Below, piece by piece: positions 14,096 to 62,019 of a stretch of DNA of 64,000 bases (the first letter of the stretch is position 1; the number at the start of each line of letters is the position of its first letter). Below the pieces are notes generated by a model. The model was not told the DNA's origin and did no database searches. It saw nothing but the letters and a program-made list of their open reading frames with translations. A program made the translations under genes and the position numbers. Location: NCBI RefSeq assembly GCF_001580045.1, contig NZ_LSZP01000060.1, positions 1-64,000 of the forward strand, in the 5' to 3' direction. This DNA comes from Cephaloticoccus capnophilus. Its GTDB lineage: Bacteria; Verrucomicrobiota; Verrucomicrobiia; Opitutales; Opitutaceae.

Positions 14096-14097
14096 AA

Positions 14098-14114
14098 AGT
14101 GGTCAGTGACCACT
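14098..14114. repeat. micro-palindrome AGTGGTC-AGT-GACCACT at recF start
   Basis: Perfect 7-bp stem around AGT, three bases upstream of the recF start. In mRNA it would cover the ribosome-binding region. The sequence and the bases after it (CTCCCATT) match the left end of the large repeat at 43987-44010 (GCGGTC-AGT-GACCGC, then TTCCATT). Confidence 0.7.
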
Positions 14115-14290
14115 CCCATTCACCTCTCGGGCAGAATGCAACACGCAAGGTAATCTCCCAGCTGACGGCCACTCGGGTCTGCTCCCGTTTCAAGCGCGAG
14201 CCGCGCTGCTGCCCTCCCCCATCCTTCACACGCAAACAAAGGTACTGCTGCACAAAGAATAGCTTTCAGCGCGCCAAGCGGCTCTGCTAT
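14098..14290. repeat. degenerate/scrambled remnant of the large repeat family
   Basis: It holds three pieces also found in the full copies: the AGT palindrome with CCCATT (14098-14120); a block at 14175-14212 with GTCTGCTCCCGTTTCAAGCG and GAGCCGCGCTGCTGC, matching 48521-48560 and 62001-62036; and GCCAAGCGGCTCTG near 14272-14286, one arm of the third hairpin at 48643-48657. No complete hairpins or terminal repeats remain. It fills the recF-gmhA divergent gap and so carries or replaces their promoters. Confidence 0.6.
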
Positions 14291-43940: not shown

Positions 43941-44303
43941 CTTTTCCCACTGCGCGTGGGGCCCTTTTTCCACTGCGCGTGGGGCGGCGGTCAGTGACCG
44001 CTTCCATTTAATTTGGGATTTCTCATCGCGCTACCGCGCGATCACGAAATCCCAAATTTGAAAGCATTCTCCCTGTCGCGTTGCGATAGGGAGAGCAGTA
44101 AAAGGGAAAGTAGAGTGATAACCCGTTTGGGCGAGGTGGGAAAAATCACCAGTAAACTCCCGCCTCCAAAGTTTGGGTTCCTTTCTACCGAACGCTTGGT
44201 TGCCGTGCGAATGCACGGCGGCCAAGCGTTCGGTAAATGGGTGCAGCGACACGCTGTCGCCCCACGCGTAGTGGAAAAGTGCCTCACGCGTAGTGGGAAA
44301 AAC
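43941..44303. mobile_element. MITE-like repeat element, full copy B (+ orientation)
   Basis: Terminal inverted repeats: TTTTCCACTGCGCGTGGGG on the left (with a tandem extra copy at 43942-43960) and its near-complement on the right (also doubled, 44260-44298). Inside are three hairpins. Hairpin 1 is AATTTGGGATTTC/GAAATCCCAAATT, 44010-44058, with a nested CGCG stem. Hairpin 2 is CTCCCTGTCGC/GCGATAGGGAG, 44069-44093. Hairpin 3 is ACCGAACGCTTGG...CCAAGCGTTCGGT with inner GCCGTGC-GAAT-GCACGGC, 44187-44234. A conserved linker at 44111-44180 contains GAGTGATAACCCGTTTGGGC. The element has no ORF. It starts right after the SurA-like stop and ends one base before the PEP-CTERM stop. Its left CCCAC-TGCGC-GTGGG stem followed by CCCTTTTT could terminate the mfd operon. 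Confidence 0.75.
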
Positions 44304-44304
44304 G

Positions 44305-47300
44305 TTACTCCTGATTGGGGCGGCGCGGTTTGTGGCGGCGCCAGAGGAGTAAGCCCAAGCCGGTCGCACCGAGGATTGCCCCGTAGGTGCTCGGTTCGGG
44401 GAAGTAGGTGGCCATTTGTCGGGGGAAGGGTGTGACCTCGTAGTAGTCCTCGTTGTAGTGAGCGATGTAGAGGAAACTGTAGCCTTCGAATTCAACGCGT
44501 TGGTTAGTGTTAGCCAAAATACCGCCGTTAAGGCCGGATGGATCGGTGTACCTGTACTCGTCGTATTTGGAGCGGTGGACGAGGAGGTAGTCTTCGCCCT
44601 CGAACCAGTTGCGAATGGTCAGTTTTGAGCCGACCCCAATGATCAGTTCGTCGATGTAGAGGTAGTTGGCCATGCCGACCTCGCCGCCTCTGAAGTCGAT
44701 TACCCCTTGGCCCTGCACCTCCAGCGTCTTGAGCCGGTGTGTGGTTCCGGCAAAGGCAGTCGTCCCCGGCAGACCAGCAGGCTTGAGCGCAAACTCTAAA
44801 ACGCCCGCGCCATAGTTGCCGCCGCGCAGGACGATATGCCGCTCGCCAGTGAGCTGGTTATTGTATTTCGGCAGACGCAGGACATCCGTTCCCGAGCGGT
44901 CGCCCACGATGATTTTACCAGTCGTGTTAATCCGACCGTTGGCACCGAGATCGAGCTCCAGTCGCCCCCCGTGGACGTAGATATTCCTAAAGCTACTCGT
45001 GCCGTCGCTTGTGAGTCGGAGCGTTTCGGGGCCGGCTTTTACAAAGTCGATACCGCCAGTAATCCGCGCATTAATCTCGGCCGTAGCGCCCCCGCTTCCG
45101 CTACCGTAAACGTGCGCGTAAAGCGTCCCCCCACTGGCAGTTGTCAGCGAGCCTGCGCCCGAGATTTTCCCCGCGGCACCGTTCGCAAAGAGCAGGCCTC
45201 CCGAGTCAACCGTTAGCGTACGGCCTGCGGCGAGGTTGAGCTCTCCCGAACCCATTCGCAGCGAGCGAACCGCGCGGCTCTGGTCGAGCGTCCGGTTCGT
45301 ATTGCCGATGTTGATGTTGCTCGTGGTCGTCCAAGTCGCCCCCGGGGCAGCAGTCACGTAGTCCGCGAGTTGCGTAATGGTGCCGTTGGCATCTTGGCTC
45401 ACCCAATCCGTTCCGTTAACGGTCGCCCACGGGCTCATATTGCCAAAGTCGCCAAAGGCGTTCTGCGCATTGGGAAGTTGTAGCCGGACACCGGTCGGGC
45501 TAAACACCGCCTCGCTTATCAAGTCGAGTGTCGCCCGCTCGTCGTCGTTGCGATCGAAGCCCGCGAACTCCAGAACCATCGCTCCGGTCGCTTCGATCGC
45601 TATCGTATTGCTGCCGCCCTCAAGCTTGAGCGTGCCGAGCGTCTCGGTGTCGCGCGCGCCCGAGCCCGAACCCTTGCGATAGCGAAAGGTGCCGCCGTCG
45701 AGTGTGAGCGTAGAGTTTGCCCCGAGTCGTCCCGCAAGGTCAGTCGTACGATTATCAAGTGTGAGCGTTCCCGACTCGCGGACGAAAATCTGTGTTCCTG
45801 TCAGAACACCGCCAACCAGAATGCCCGGAAGAGCGCCCGCCTCATTCAGAGTCACCGTGGCACCCCGTACGCTAAACGTGTTCAGCGCGTTCGCCGCCCG
45901 CATCGCGAGACGCCCATCGCCCACGATTACAAGCCCCGTGCCACTGACGCTTTGATTGAGCACCGCATCGTAATCGACCGAGTCTAGGCGTCCTCGCGCC
46001 ACGCGGACGGTTTGAGTGCCATTCGTCTCAAGCGCCTTGTCCCAGGTAAGCGTCGCGCTCGACAGCGAGTGCCCAAGGATAAGCTCGCTCCCATCGCTCA
46101 GGAAATGCTCGTCTTCCCAAGAAAGTGAACTCTCAGGATCGGTTCCGATACGAATCGTGGTGGACGACTCCCCCGCAGCAAAGCCGCCGCTGCCGAGCCA
46201 CCGGAACTCCCCGTTTCCCGTGCCAAGGGATACGGTAAACACCTCGTTCGCGCGGTTCTTCATATTCGGCATATAGACGCCGCCCGCGAGTCTGAGGTTG
46301 GTGAAGTTGAGATTGTTGACGTCGCCTTGAAGTGCACCTGCTTCGATACGGGTTCCGCCATCGTAAGACGAAGCGCTACTCGTTAGCCGCAGGAGTCCCT
46401 CCCCAGTTTTGACCAAGCCAAAGCCCTCACCACTCAGCGCCCCCTCCATCTGGGCCACGCCCTCCTGTATCTCAATCACCCGCTGATTCGTGTACCTGCT
46501 ATTAGTGTCCAGCCCCGCGTCAGCAAGCAACGCCTCGTACTCTGCTTGGAACTGAGCATGGTTCCCAAAGTAGATATCGTTTTTCCAGTGGAGGAAGCCC
46601 TCGTAAGTTTCTGAGCCGAGGACAAGACGCCCTCCGTTTTGCATGTTAATAGTATCCTTGTCTGCGAATCTATGTTCCCAGCTCCCCATAAAGCCACCTT
46701 TGTGCCAGTTAACCCTCCCGCCCGCCGTTACGTTATCCACCGATGAACTTATTGGCGGACCGTGTGACACCGTGAGATTCACGGTCTTTTCCGTGGTCCC
46801 GCGTGCGAGAAAACCTCCCCGGGCCCCTATCCATTTCACAGAGCCCGCCGGCAAAGCGCCATTCTCCCACCCCCCATCACTCACTTTCCGTGTGAAGTGC
46901 GTATCGACTCCCAGCCCCAAAACGCCTCCTGACAAAAGGAGTGTCGTCGCGAAGCTTAGCTCCGCATTAAAGCCTCCAGAAAGTGCCCAGTGCGAGTTTT
47001 CGATCCTCAATTCGCCCATCACAATCTGAGTCCCTCCAGTCCCCTTGTTACCTTGGTCGGGGAACTGCACATTATCGGCATAGGTCAAGGTAATCACCCC
47101 TTGCCCGTCTTTCATAAACATACTACTCTCGATATCGATCTTTCCTGTGAGCTTAAGGTTTCCAGATCGTGAGTAAAACCAAGTAGGAAACAGTGCACTA
47201 AACTGTGGGTTGCTGTGTTTAATCGCGGAGCTGATCGTGTTGTCGCCGCTATCGTTGTAAATCGCTCCGGAAAAGCCAGCTGCTTTTCGGTAGTCTGAGC

Positions 47301-48345
47301 CGGAGGGGTTATCAATATTAGTACTCCGGCCCGCGCCTTGGCTAAAGACGTAAATCTCCTTGGGCGCGAGCGTCAGCCCGTTCGGTGCGGTGTCCAGCGT
47401 CGAACGCAGCATTAAAGTCCCATTAGCGGACCTGGGGTTGAGCTCGGTTTCGGTTACGAATTGATTCACAGTCGTGGTAGCGCTTAGTGCCCCACTGTTT
47501 TTGATGACCGCGATCGCATGGCCCACAATATTCAGCGAGCCATTCGTCCATCCTGAGTTATTGGCGTTCAAGATGAGCTGCGTTCTATCTGTATCCACAT
47601 CGATTCGTCCCGTGCCGGTGAGGCCCGAGGCGATATGAGTCATTGAGCCGCCGCGAATTTGGAGCTTATGCGAGCCAATGCCGAAGGTGCTGCCCGTGGC
47701 CAGTGGGTCGTTGATGCCAGTGGGCTGCCCTGAAATGAGGAGCCCCGCTAGGCTCTGATTGCTAATCCGCACGGTGGACGCGGCAGTGCTATGAATCGAA
47801 ATCGTGGGAGCGAAAATTCGCGTTTCGCGCGACCGATACCAATCGGCCACGGCAATGATATGCTCCTGATCGCCCACGTTCGCCCCCAGAGTGAGCCCGC
47901 CATCGCTCGACAGCGTGTAGCCCGGACCTTCTTCATGCCCCTCAAACCAAAGCGACCCAATCGAAGTGCCCCCCGCAATCACGACCTCCTCCCGCGCATC
48001 TAGATCTGCCCCAAAACTTGAGAGCGCACCAAAAAATACCGCCGCGTCATCCGGCGGCACTTGATTGTCCTTGTTCGGGTCTGGGTGCGACCAATTTGCG
48101 CCGTCACCCCAACTTTGTGTCCCTGCCCCTTTGTCCCATACGTAACTATCGGAAGGCGGCACCAGCACAATGACCTGTGCATCAAGCGGCAGGCTCACCG
48201 CTCCAAAGCCGACCAGAAGTCCGAAGACTACCCTAAAATACTTACTTAAGTTATTATTTAAGAGTATCTTATGCCTCGGGTGGGGGCGTAAGATACTCTT
48301 ACTATCTCGGAACTCGGGCGCATGAGGGCAGTCGTTTAAGTACAT
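44305..48345 (-). CDS. giant PEP-CTERM protein with autotransporter-associated beta-strand repeats
   Basis: 1346 residues; start at 48345 backed by AGGAG six bases upstream. About 30 hydrophilic residues precede a hydrophobic signal segment (YFRVVFGLLVGFGAVSLPLDAQ, cleavage near residue 57). The body is Gly/Asn/Thr-rich beta-helix sequence with recurring autotransporter-associated strand repeats, for example LVKTGEGLLRLTSS with YDGGTRIEAGALQG, and FVKAGPETLRLTSDG. The C-terminus is a PEP-CTERM sorting signal: FPEPSTYG, a hydrophobic stretch GAILGATGLGLLLW, then RRHKPRR. It is predicted to be exported, cut by the exosortase (31341) and displayed on the surface. There is no outer-membrane barrel. 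Inverted copies of the large repeat flank it on both sides. Confidence 0.88.
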   Translation of the reverse strand: MYLNDCPHAPEFRDSKSILRPHPRHKILLNNNLSKYFRVVFGLLVGFGAVSLPLDAQVIVLVPPSDSYVWDKGAGTQSWGDGANWSHPDPNKDNQVPPDDAAVFFGALSSFGADLDAREEVVIAGGTSIGSLWFEGHEEGPGYTLSSDGGLTLGANVGDQEHIIAVADWYRSRETRIFAPTISIHSTAASTVRISNQSLAGLLISGQPTGINDPLATGSTFGIGSHKLQIRGGSMTHIASGLTGTGRIDVDTDRTQLILNANNSGWTNGSLNIVGHAIAVIKNSGALSATTTVNQFVTETELNPRSANGTLMLRSTLDTAPNGLTLAPKEIYVFSQGAGRSTNIDNPSGSDYRKAAGFSGAIYNDSGDNTISSAIKHSNPQFSALFPTWFYSRSGNLKLTGKIDIESSMFMKDGQGVITLTYADNVQFPDQGNKGTGGTQIVMGELRIENSHWALSGGFNAELSFATTLLLSGGVLGLGVDTHFTRKVSDGGWENGALPAGSVKWIGARGGFLARGTTEKTVNLTVSHGPPISSSVDNVTAGGRVNWHKGGFMGSWEHRFADKDTINMQNGGRLVLGSETYEGFLHWKNDIYFGNHAQFQAEYEALLADAGLDTNSRYTNQRVIEIQEGVAQMEGALSGEGFGLVKTGEGLLRLTSSASSYDGGTRIEAGALQGDVNNLNFTNLRLAGGVYMPNMKNRANEVFTVSLGTGNGEFRWLGSGGFAAGESSTTIRIGTDPESSLSWEDEHFLSDGSELILGHSLSSATLTWDKALETNGTQTVRVARGRLDSVDYDAVLNQSVSGTGLVIVGDGRLAMRAANALNTFSVRGATVTLNEAGALPGILVGGVLTGTQIFVRESGTLTLDNRTTDLAGRLGANSTLTLDGGTFRYRKGSGSGARDTETLGTLKLEGGSNTIAIEATGAMVLEFAGFDRNDDERATLDLISEAVFSPTGVRLQLPNAQNAFGDFGNMSPWATVNGTDWVSQDANGTITQLADYVTAAPGATWTTTSNINIGNTNRTLDQSRAVRSLRMGSGELNLAAGRTLTVDSGGLLFANGAAGKISGAGSLTTASGGTLYAHVYGSGSGGATAEINARITGGIDFVKAGPETLRLTSDGTSSFRNIYVHGGRLELDLGANGRINTTGKIIVGDRSGTDVLRLPKYNNQLTGERHIVLRGGNYGAGVLEFALKPAGLPGTTAFAGTTHRLKTLEVQGQGVIDFRGGEVGMANYLYIDELIIGVGSKLTIRNWFEGEDYLLVHRSKYDEYRYTDPSGLNGGILANTNQRVEFEGYSFLYIAHYNEDYYEVTPFPRQMATYFPEPSTYGAILGATGLGLLLWRRHKPRRPNQE
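48259..48301 (-). promoter_or_regulatory. 13-bp inverted repeat in the 5' coding leader of the PEP-CTERM gene
   Basis: TAAGAGTATCTTA (48259-48271) and TAAGATACTCTTA (48289-48301) are exact complements across 17 bases. The stem covers codons 15-29, between the start and the signal segment. It may act as an mRNA hairpin controlling translation, or as a binding site. Confidence 0.6.
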
Positions 48346-48518: not shown

Positions 48519-48879
48519 CCCTAGGGGCTGTTCCCGTTTCAAACGCGAGCCGCGCTACTGCGTTTTTTCCACTACGCGTGGAGCGGCAGGCTGTGCCTGC
48601 ACCCATTTACAGAGCCGCTTGGTTGCTGTGCATTCGCACAGCAGCCAAGCGGCTCTGTGAAAAGGAACCCAAACTTCAGGACGTGGATTTATCCGTGATT
48701 TTCCCCACTTCGCCCAAACGGGTTATCACTCTACTCTCCCTTTTACTTCTCGCCCTGTCGCAACGCGACAGGGGGGGAATGCTTTCAAATTTGGGATTTC
48801 GCTTTCGCGCGATAGCGCGAGCCGAAATCCCAAATTGAACGGGTGCAGCGACACGCTGCCGCCCCACGCGCAGTGGAAG
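48519..48879. mobile_element. MITE-like repeat element, full copy C (core inverted)
   Basis: It begins with a block (48519-48562) shared with 61999-62041 and 14175-14212. The left terminal repeat with GCAGGC-TGT-GCCTGC (about 48585-48600) follows. Next are hairpin 3 (48609-48658; inner GCTGTGC-ATTC-GCACAGC), the linker in reverse (48665-48742), hairpin 2 (CCCTGTCGC-AAC-GCGACAGGG, 48753-48773) and hairpin 1 (AATTTGGGATTTC/GAAATCCCAAATT, about 48787-48836). The right terminal repeat with GCAGCG-ACA-CGCTGC ends near 48879, eight bases before the ClC gene stop. Relative to copy B the core is reversed. The stems differ by paired changes while the loops match. Confidence 0.75.
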
Positions 48880-61317: not shown

Positions 61318-62019
61318 ATGTCGCCCACCGAACCCACAGACACTGCCCACCCCAAACTCGTCACCTTCCGCAAAGCCTTTTTCACTGGCTTGGCCTTGAT
61401 CGCGCCACTGGTCATCACGCTCTGGGCCCTGCTCAAAATCATCGCCTTGGTCGGTGGCGCAGTGCGACCCTTCCTCGTCCAGTTCATCCCGGGCGACCTC
61501 CCCGGAATCCCGCTATTCTGGGATGTTTTGGCGACCGTCATTGTGCTGCTCTTGGTCGCGCTGCTCGGCTACGTCTCGCGACACGTCTTTGCCCGTTTCC
61601 TCCTCCATACCAGCGAACGGCTCATGCTCGTAATCCCTGGAGCGGGCACGATCTACAACACCGTCAAACAAATCGTCGGCACCTTTGGCGCACAAAATCG
61701 CAACCTCTTTAGCAAAGTCGTCCTCGTCCAATTTCCCAAAAACGGAAGCTGGATGCTAGGCTTTGTGACGAGCAAGGAGCAGGCCGAGCCGCAGGCAAAA
61801 ACCGGCCTAAACGAGCCGTGGACGATCTTCGTCCCCACCTCGCCCAACCCGACGACCGGCTTTCTCTTGTTTCTGCCGCCCGAAGATATCGTCGAACTCG
61901 AAATGAATGTGGCCGACGGCATGAAACTCATCATCTCCGGCGGTAGCGTCATCCCGCCTTGGGCTCCACCGACAGCAAGCTCGGACTCAGCCTCTCGCCT
62001 AGGGTCTGTTCCCGTTTAA
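61318..62019 (+). CDS. DUF502 family membrane protein
   Basis: 233 residues from ATG 61318 (MSPTEPTDTAHP); a longer ORF from 61210 overlaps ybeY and is unlikely. Two membrane segments (TGLALIAPLVITLWALLKIIALVGG, and VLATVIVLLLVALLGYV) precede the conserved LMLVIPGAGTIYNTVKQIVGTF and WTIFVPTSPNPTTGFLLFLPPEDI. The function is unknown. The last codons and the TAA stop lie within the left block of a repeat element (61999 onward), so the native C-terminus may have been replaced. Confidence 0.88.
   Translation: MSPTEPTDTAHPKLVTFRKAFFTGLALIAPLVITLWALLKIIALVGGAVRPFLVQFIPGDLPGIPLFWDVLATVIVLLLVALLGYVSRHVFARFLLHTSERLMLVIPGAGTIYNTVKQIVGTFGAQNRNLFSKVVLVQFPKNGSWMLGFVTSKEQAEPQAKTGLNEPWTIFVPTSPNPTTGFLLFLPPEDIVELEMNVADGMKLIISGGSVIPPWAPPTASSDSASRLGSVPV

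Follow-up and report, generated by a model that had tools for sequence, protein, structure and literature searches.

Repeat copies in the window

Three copies of a dispersed, non-coding repeat lie in the 64,000-nucleotide window, which is the whole stretch analyzed and belongs to a genome of 2,092,503 bases in 66 contigs (G000). All three had been noticed in a preliminary description made from the sequence alone; direct reading finds them present, as members of a family of at least 142 (Table 1). The window also encodes, at 44305-48345 on the minus strand, a protein of 1346 amino acids with an autotransporter-type repeat and a PEP-CTERM anchor-like C terminus, and several other copies of the element adjoin genes whose C-terminal part is similar to that of this protein.

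The core of the element, about 283 to 308 bp, runs from CCACTRCGCGTGG to CCACGCGYAGTGG and contains five hairpins and a linker. The modules follow one another as end unit CCACTRCGCGTGG, left terminal hairpin, hairpin 1, hairpin 2, spacer, linker, hairpin 3, right terminal hairpin, and end unit. Copy 1 carries an extra end unit of 20 to 22 bp on each side of its core, which explains why it was initially bounded at 43941-44303, wider than the core alone. The starts first given for copies 2 and 3 (48519 and 61999) take in a separate flanking repeat, module A (CTAGGGNCTGTTCCCGTTT), which resembles an independent repeat and often flanks the element. The terminal inverted repeats expected of a dispersed element were confirmed, the arms of copy 1 being 45 nt long and 76% complementary. 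Hairpin 3 has the sequence originally reported, but its arms are 91 to 92% complementary in copies 1 and 2 rather than perfectly matched. Folded as RNA, copy 1 has a predicted energy of -184.3 kcal/mol (z -16.7), and its complement -169.5 kcal/mol (z -13.4).

Table 1. Features of the repeat in the 64,000-nt window
Feature	Position	Strand	Remark
Probable relic of left terminal hairpin (AGTGGTCAGTGACCACTCCCATTCA), G006-like	14096..14122	+	
Degraded module A beside relic hairpin	14172..14190	+	
Copy 1, extra outer left end unit TTTTCCCACTGCGCGTGGGGCC, duplicate of terminal unit	43942..43963	+	direct repeat D1
Copy 1, core element, 305 bp	43970..44274	+	
Copy 1, left terminal hairpin GCGGTC-AGT-GACCGC	43987..44001	+	
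Copy 1, hairpin 1 (slot 1), ATTTC allele	44010..44058	+	
Copy 1, hairpin 2, TCTCCCTGTCGC-GTT-GCGATAGGGAGA	44068..44094	+	
Copy 1, conserved linker GAGTGATAACCCGTTTGGGC	44113..44132	+	142 genome matches
Copy 1, hairpin 3 (slot 3), CCGAACGCTTGG allele	44186..44235	+	
Copy 1, right terminal hairpin GCAGCG-ACA-CGCTGT	44243..44257	+	
Copy 1, extra outer right end unit	44281..44300	+	direct repeat D2
Module A (CTAGGGGCTGTTCCCGTTT) flanking copy 2	48521..48539	+	
Copy 2, core element, 308 bp; hairpin 3 of CAGAGCCGCTTGG allele	48569..48876	-	
Module A (CTAGGGTCTGTTCCCGTTT) flanking copy 3	61999..62017	+	
Copy 3, truncated: left terminal hairpin, hairpin 1, shortened hairpin 2, linker	62048..~62244	+	right third missing

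Slots and alleles

Every hairpin position is a slot that can be filled by alternative alleles. In slot 1, 60 copies have the ATTTC allele, 24 have AATTGG, and 2 have AGATTTTGG; in slot 3, 33 have CCGAACGCTTGG and 38 have CAGAGCCGCTTGG. The AGATTTTGG hairpin cassette is shared by the two slots, its occurrence in slot 3 counting rows that our script labeled "other" because their first bases were cut off. Other copies carry left terminal hairpins of the form GCAGGC-TGT-GCCTGC or GCAGCG-TGT-CGCTGC, the end unit (CCACTRCGCGTGG) occurs in GTAG and GCAG versions, and the modules outside the core are chosen independently on the left and right. Linker conservation is 0.974, a value biased upward by the collection of most copies with the linker itself. 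A second hairpin repeat, GCAGCCGCAGGCTG...GGCGGCGGGCTCGTTGGCCCGCCG, lies within the left terminal hairpin or replaces it at L028, L064, L065, L088, L090, L091, and L099.

Family size and distribution

A search of the 2.09-Mb G000 genome with the 20-base linker returned 142 matches at three or fewer mismatches and none for a reversed control pattern, so the repeat family is not a product of chance; it occupies about 140 intergenic places. Stretches around some 100 linker matches were taken, yielding 88 copies with both ends, 64 of which have a core of 283 to 308 bp. Copies stand at or near contig ends in contigs C2, C8, C19, C21, C30, C46, C47, and C64, which suggests that the repeat broke the assembly; 142 is accordingly a lower bound, and the true number is probably higher.

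One congener (G006) carries a family built on the same plan, about 73% identical in sequence. When 57 genomes were searched by DNA and 200 genomes of the family with a covariance model, only G000 and G006 gave strong matches; the DNA search also listed a 31-base match in G010 and found no copies in seven congeners. A linker search of viral contigs gave no match. Scanning GTDB contigs with 18 bases of the linker, a set from which near relatives of the window were possibly excluded, gave a single exact match in each of four unrelated genomes, about the number expected by chance for 18 bases in 257 billion. Identity between copies is 88.3% within G000, 80.2% within G006, and 72.6% across the two species; with a mean of 88% within the genome, the copies are not recent exact duplicates.

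Paired stem changes and mismatch symmetry

The preliminary description had drawn attention to paired changes in the hairpin stems, and the larger set bears out the pairing. We aligned 23 left halves from both species, picked for diversity, without reference to structure. Of 713 stem cells, 99.9% are paired; 16 of the 31 pairs are altered on both sides, both-sided changes outnumber one-sided ones by 89 cells to 2, and the covariation score was reached by none of 500 shuffles. Pairing drops to 33 to 43% when the structure is slid along the alignment, a control that leans in favor of the stems since they were derived from the same 23 sequences. Several of the stem differences represent discrete slot alleles and not paired substitutions that arose independently. 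Hardly any wobble intermediates were seen, G-U occurring in 2 of the 713 cells.

Selection on an RNA would predict mostly G-T mismatches on its strand. A strand-symmetric scan of the G000 stems on the plus strand of the element counted 65 G-T and 68 A-C mismatches with 4 transversions, and the corresponding counts in G006 were 6, 11, and 8; with G-T close to A-C, no strand is favored. Such counts are not independent of one another because the copies share ancestry. Hairpin 3 of G000 taken alone has more G-T than A-C (47 against 27 cells, or 28 against 14 among unique variants), a hint of strand bias that may or may not be due to shared ancestry.

Within one copy, the arms resemble each other far more than they resemble those of other copies: in hairpin 3 of G006, arm divergence is 32% between copies and 3% inside a copy, and 15 of 19 stems are perfect across 19 to 27 bp. 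Some copies have several adjacent bases altered so that one arm matches the other. Block correction of this kind appears as GACGGGGCC in one copy, where the other 30 copies with the AATTGG allele retain a mismatched 3' arm, and as GCTTTCGCGC matched to GCGCGAAAGC in two further copies. Chimeric arms occur in L030, L036, and L043. The loops, at first taken to be constant, include some that are reverse complemented, with GTT/AAC, GAA/TTC, CGAATG/CATTCG, and CTTATG/CATAAG each present in both orientations. Homogenization of the arms is incomplete, as the inner parts of hairpins 1 and 3 retain shared mismatches in many copies.

Genomic placement

The copies are intergenic, judged against genes called with a simple codon score of our own making. 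The median distance from a copy to a gene is 50 bp for 3' ends and 135 bp for 5' ends. The gaps that hold them comprise 35 tandem, 30 convergent, and 11 divergent ones, convergent gaps making up 30 of 76 among the copies compared with 7 of 39 in the window (p 0.02). Between tandem genes, 23 copies are oriented opposite to the genes and 12 along them.

At about 12 of 30 G006 loci, the copy adjoins a gene that is flanked on the same side by a copy in G000; an estimate using an assumed occupancy puts the chance expectation at roughly 10 to 20%. Orientation at shared junctions is independent (6 the same, 8 opposite). Fourteen pairs of copies beside the same gene are 72.5% identical, compared with 72.6% across the species generally, which makes the identity of shared-site copies uninformative as proof of vertical descent. 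Looking for empty sites, as the preliminary description had proposed, we found two junctions empty in congeners, with gene names assigned by us from sequence. At aroG-mutS the element is absent from three congeners having that gene order, and the insertion point differs by some bases between the G000 and G006 copies. At rplS-tkt it is absent from all seven of seven congeners, and a short terminator-like hairpin stands there instead. The element-free aroG-mutS gap of one congener (G004, L177) contains other GC-rich hairpins. The probable relic at 14096-14190 of the window has a G006-like hairpin and occupies a junction that in G006 carries a full copy. Shared junctions could reflect either common ancestry followed by recombination or repeated insertion at favored junctions.

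Transposases and target sites

The element had been proposed as the target of a transposase that reads hairpins, a proposal that found no support. The direct-repeat score of the flanks was 2.63, against a permuted mean of 2.48 and maximum of 2.71, so that no target duplication rose above permutation; nor did paired inverted flanks, despite the striking appearance of individual copies, L054 and L058 among them. Three transposase families were sought in the genus: Y1, DDE_Tnp_1, and IS110-type (PF01797, PF01609, and PF02371). G006 had no match to any of them, and a RAYT/Y1 association was rejected for that genome. G000 had no DDE_Tnp_1 or IS110-type match and a single Y1 (L163:190-2001, contig C59) that adjoins a 488-amino-acid TnpB and belongs to an ordinary IS605-type insertion sequence. 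Among these three families, no transposase was found with ends matching the repeat.

Origin and maintenance of the hairpins

That paired stems point to a folded RNA or single-stranded DNA being selected or recognized, as originally suggested, holds as far as the pairing goes; the near parity of G-T and A-C mismatches, the inverted loops, and the chimeric arms pull the other way. Together with the scarcity of wobbles, these observations point to homogenization at the DNA level, and covariation does not necessarily mean that a folded form is selected. Studies of yeast genes attribute arm homogenization as well as spacer inversion to template switching (PMC8604942), and work on RNA genes credits it with the ability to create and maintain hairpins (PMC8794818). 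The well-matched G006 arms, inverted loops, chimeric arms, and block changes seen here are what published work describes for switching between the arms of an inverted repeat. We consider it somewhat probable (about 0.55) that DNA-level matching of arms by template switching, with recombination among copies, explains this mosaic repeat. The hairpin would form in single-stranded DNA during replication, and one arm would template the other by quasipalindrome template switching, which would repair mismatches in blocks and could flip the loop. Recombination among the many copies would then spread hairpin variants inside a species. The family may have entered or arisen in the lineage of G000 and G006, its copies perhaps tolerated mostly near gene 3' ends, and it may now be maintained chiefly by inheritance and recombination. 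We infer template switching from changes among present-day copies, read without a tree, and not from mutations seen to happen.

Parity of mismatches has a second possible source, in that strand bias would likewise vanish if selection favored a DNA cruciform or hairpins read on both strands. Stems kept by selection for DNA or both-strand structure, whether as a cruciform, a protein-binding site, or a two-way barrier to transcription between genes, would also suit the conserved linker, the proximity to 3' ends, and the excess in convergent gaps. Placement near 3' ends may merely reflect tolerance, however, and selection alone leaves loop inversion unexplained. A scan for terminators found only one such feature, the duplicate end unit to the outside of copy 1, and none among the core hairpins, and the lack of copies in seven congeners and at the two checked junctions means that any such role is not general; we regard this explanation as rather unlikely. 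For a structured RNA transcribed from the element, with its folding under selection, the very stable plus-strand fold, the strong covariation, and the G-T excess in G000 hairpin 3 can be cited. The mismatches nevertheless have no overall strand bias, wobble pairs are almost absent, both orientations occur between tandem genes, and the window copies belong to no Rfam family (a scan of the window at gathering thresholds found two tRNAs only), which together leave a selected RNA highly improbable.

The possibility that a Y1/RAYT-like or other enzyme reads the element as folded single-stranded DNA, shared sites being repeated independent insertions, concerns how the family spreads and is compatible with template switching of the arms. 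Random orientation at shared junctions, identity there no higher than between random copies, and the shifted aroG-mutS insertion point all fit it. We find it doubtful in view of the transposase search, with no Y1 in G006 and in G000 only that of a plain IS605 element with TnpB, and of the G006-like relic, which favors ancestral presence at its junction; the lack of target duplication counts less, since single-strand transposition need not make one. Ordinary MITEs of a now inactive DDE transposon would share the terminal inverted repeats, short non-coding sequence, and high copy number of this family, but they fit poorly with outer ends built of alternative modules on left and right independently and with the missing target duplication. 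Neither genome has a match to the two families searched in this connection, DDE_Tnp_1 and IS110-type, and we judge a MITE origin very unlikely. A more speculative proposal, to which we give little credence, takes the hairpin as the unit of exchange: cassettes would move between slots and copies through an enzyme-driven single-stranded DNA step, the enzyme so far unrecognized, and arm-to-arm copying would keep the hairpins near perfect.

Covariation in stems is usually read as the mark of a functional RNA, and the more than 100 copies here, with strong covariation, hardly any wobbles, and no strand bias overall, suggest that DNA-level repair of arms can give the same signal. If template switching does account for the paired stems, the family would offer natural material for testing the reliability of covariation methods and would show a bacterial repeat evolving one hairpin at a time.

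Relationship to known repeats

We read the repeat as a new family of intergenic mosaic palindromic repeats, with BIME and BOX elements as its nearest counterparts. BIME and REP sequences are high-copy intergenic palindromes built into mosaics (PMC2817692 and PMC3733652), the REPs being described as units of 20 to 40 bp that carry a GTAG or CGTC tag. The present repeat is likewise a high-copy, intergenic mosaic of palindromic modules, and has the palindromic units and set motifs by which a BIME is recognized. It differs from REPs in its five-hairpin core of about 300 bp and its lack of a constant GTAG/CGTC tag, and from REP/RAYT systems in lacking a REP-associated Y1 (none in G006, and one beside TnpB in G000); without a constant tag or a RAYT, we call it BIME-like and do not class it as a BIME. 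The pneumococcal BOX element (PMC3049150) is likewise composite and modular, is predicted to fold strongly, and reaches high copy number in a genome of about 2 Mb; the present repeat resembles it in these respects, a likeness of general plan only. BOX varies in its number of tandem boxB units, whereas here whole hairpins are swapped in fixed slots. The likeness to MITEs lies in short, non-coding sequence bounded by terminal inverted repeats, and the difference in the lack of a target-site duplication. With template-switch mutations (PMC8604942 and PMC8794818) the likeness is one of process and not of family, comprising arm homogenization and loop inversion; those studies inferred single events, whereas the inference here spans many scattered copies from two species.
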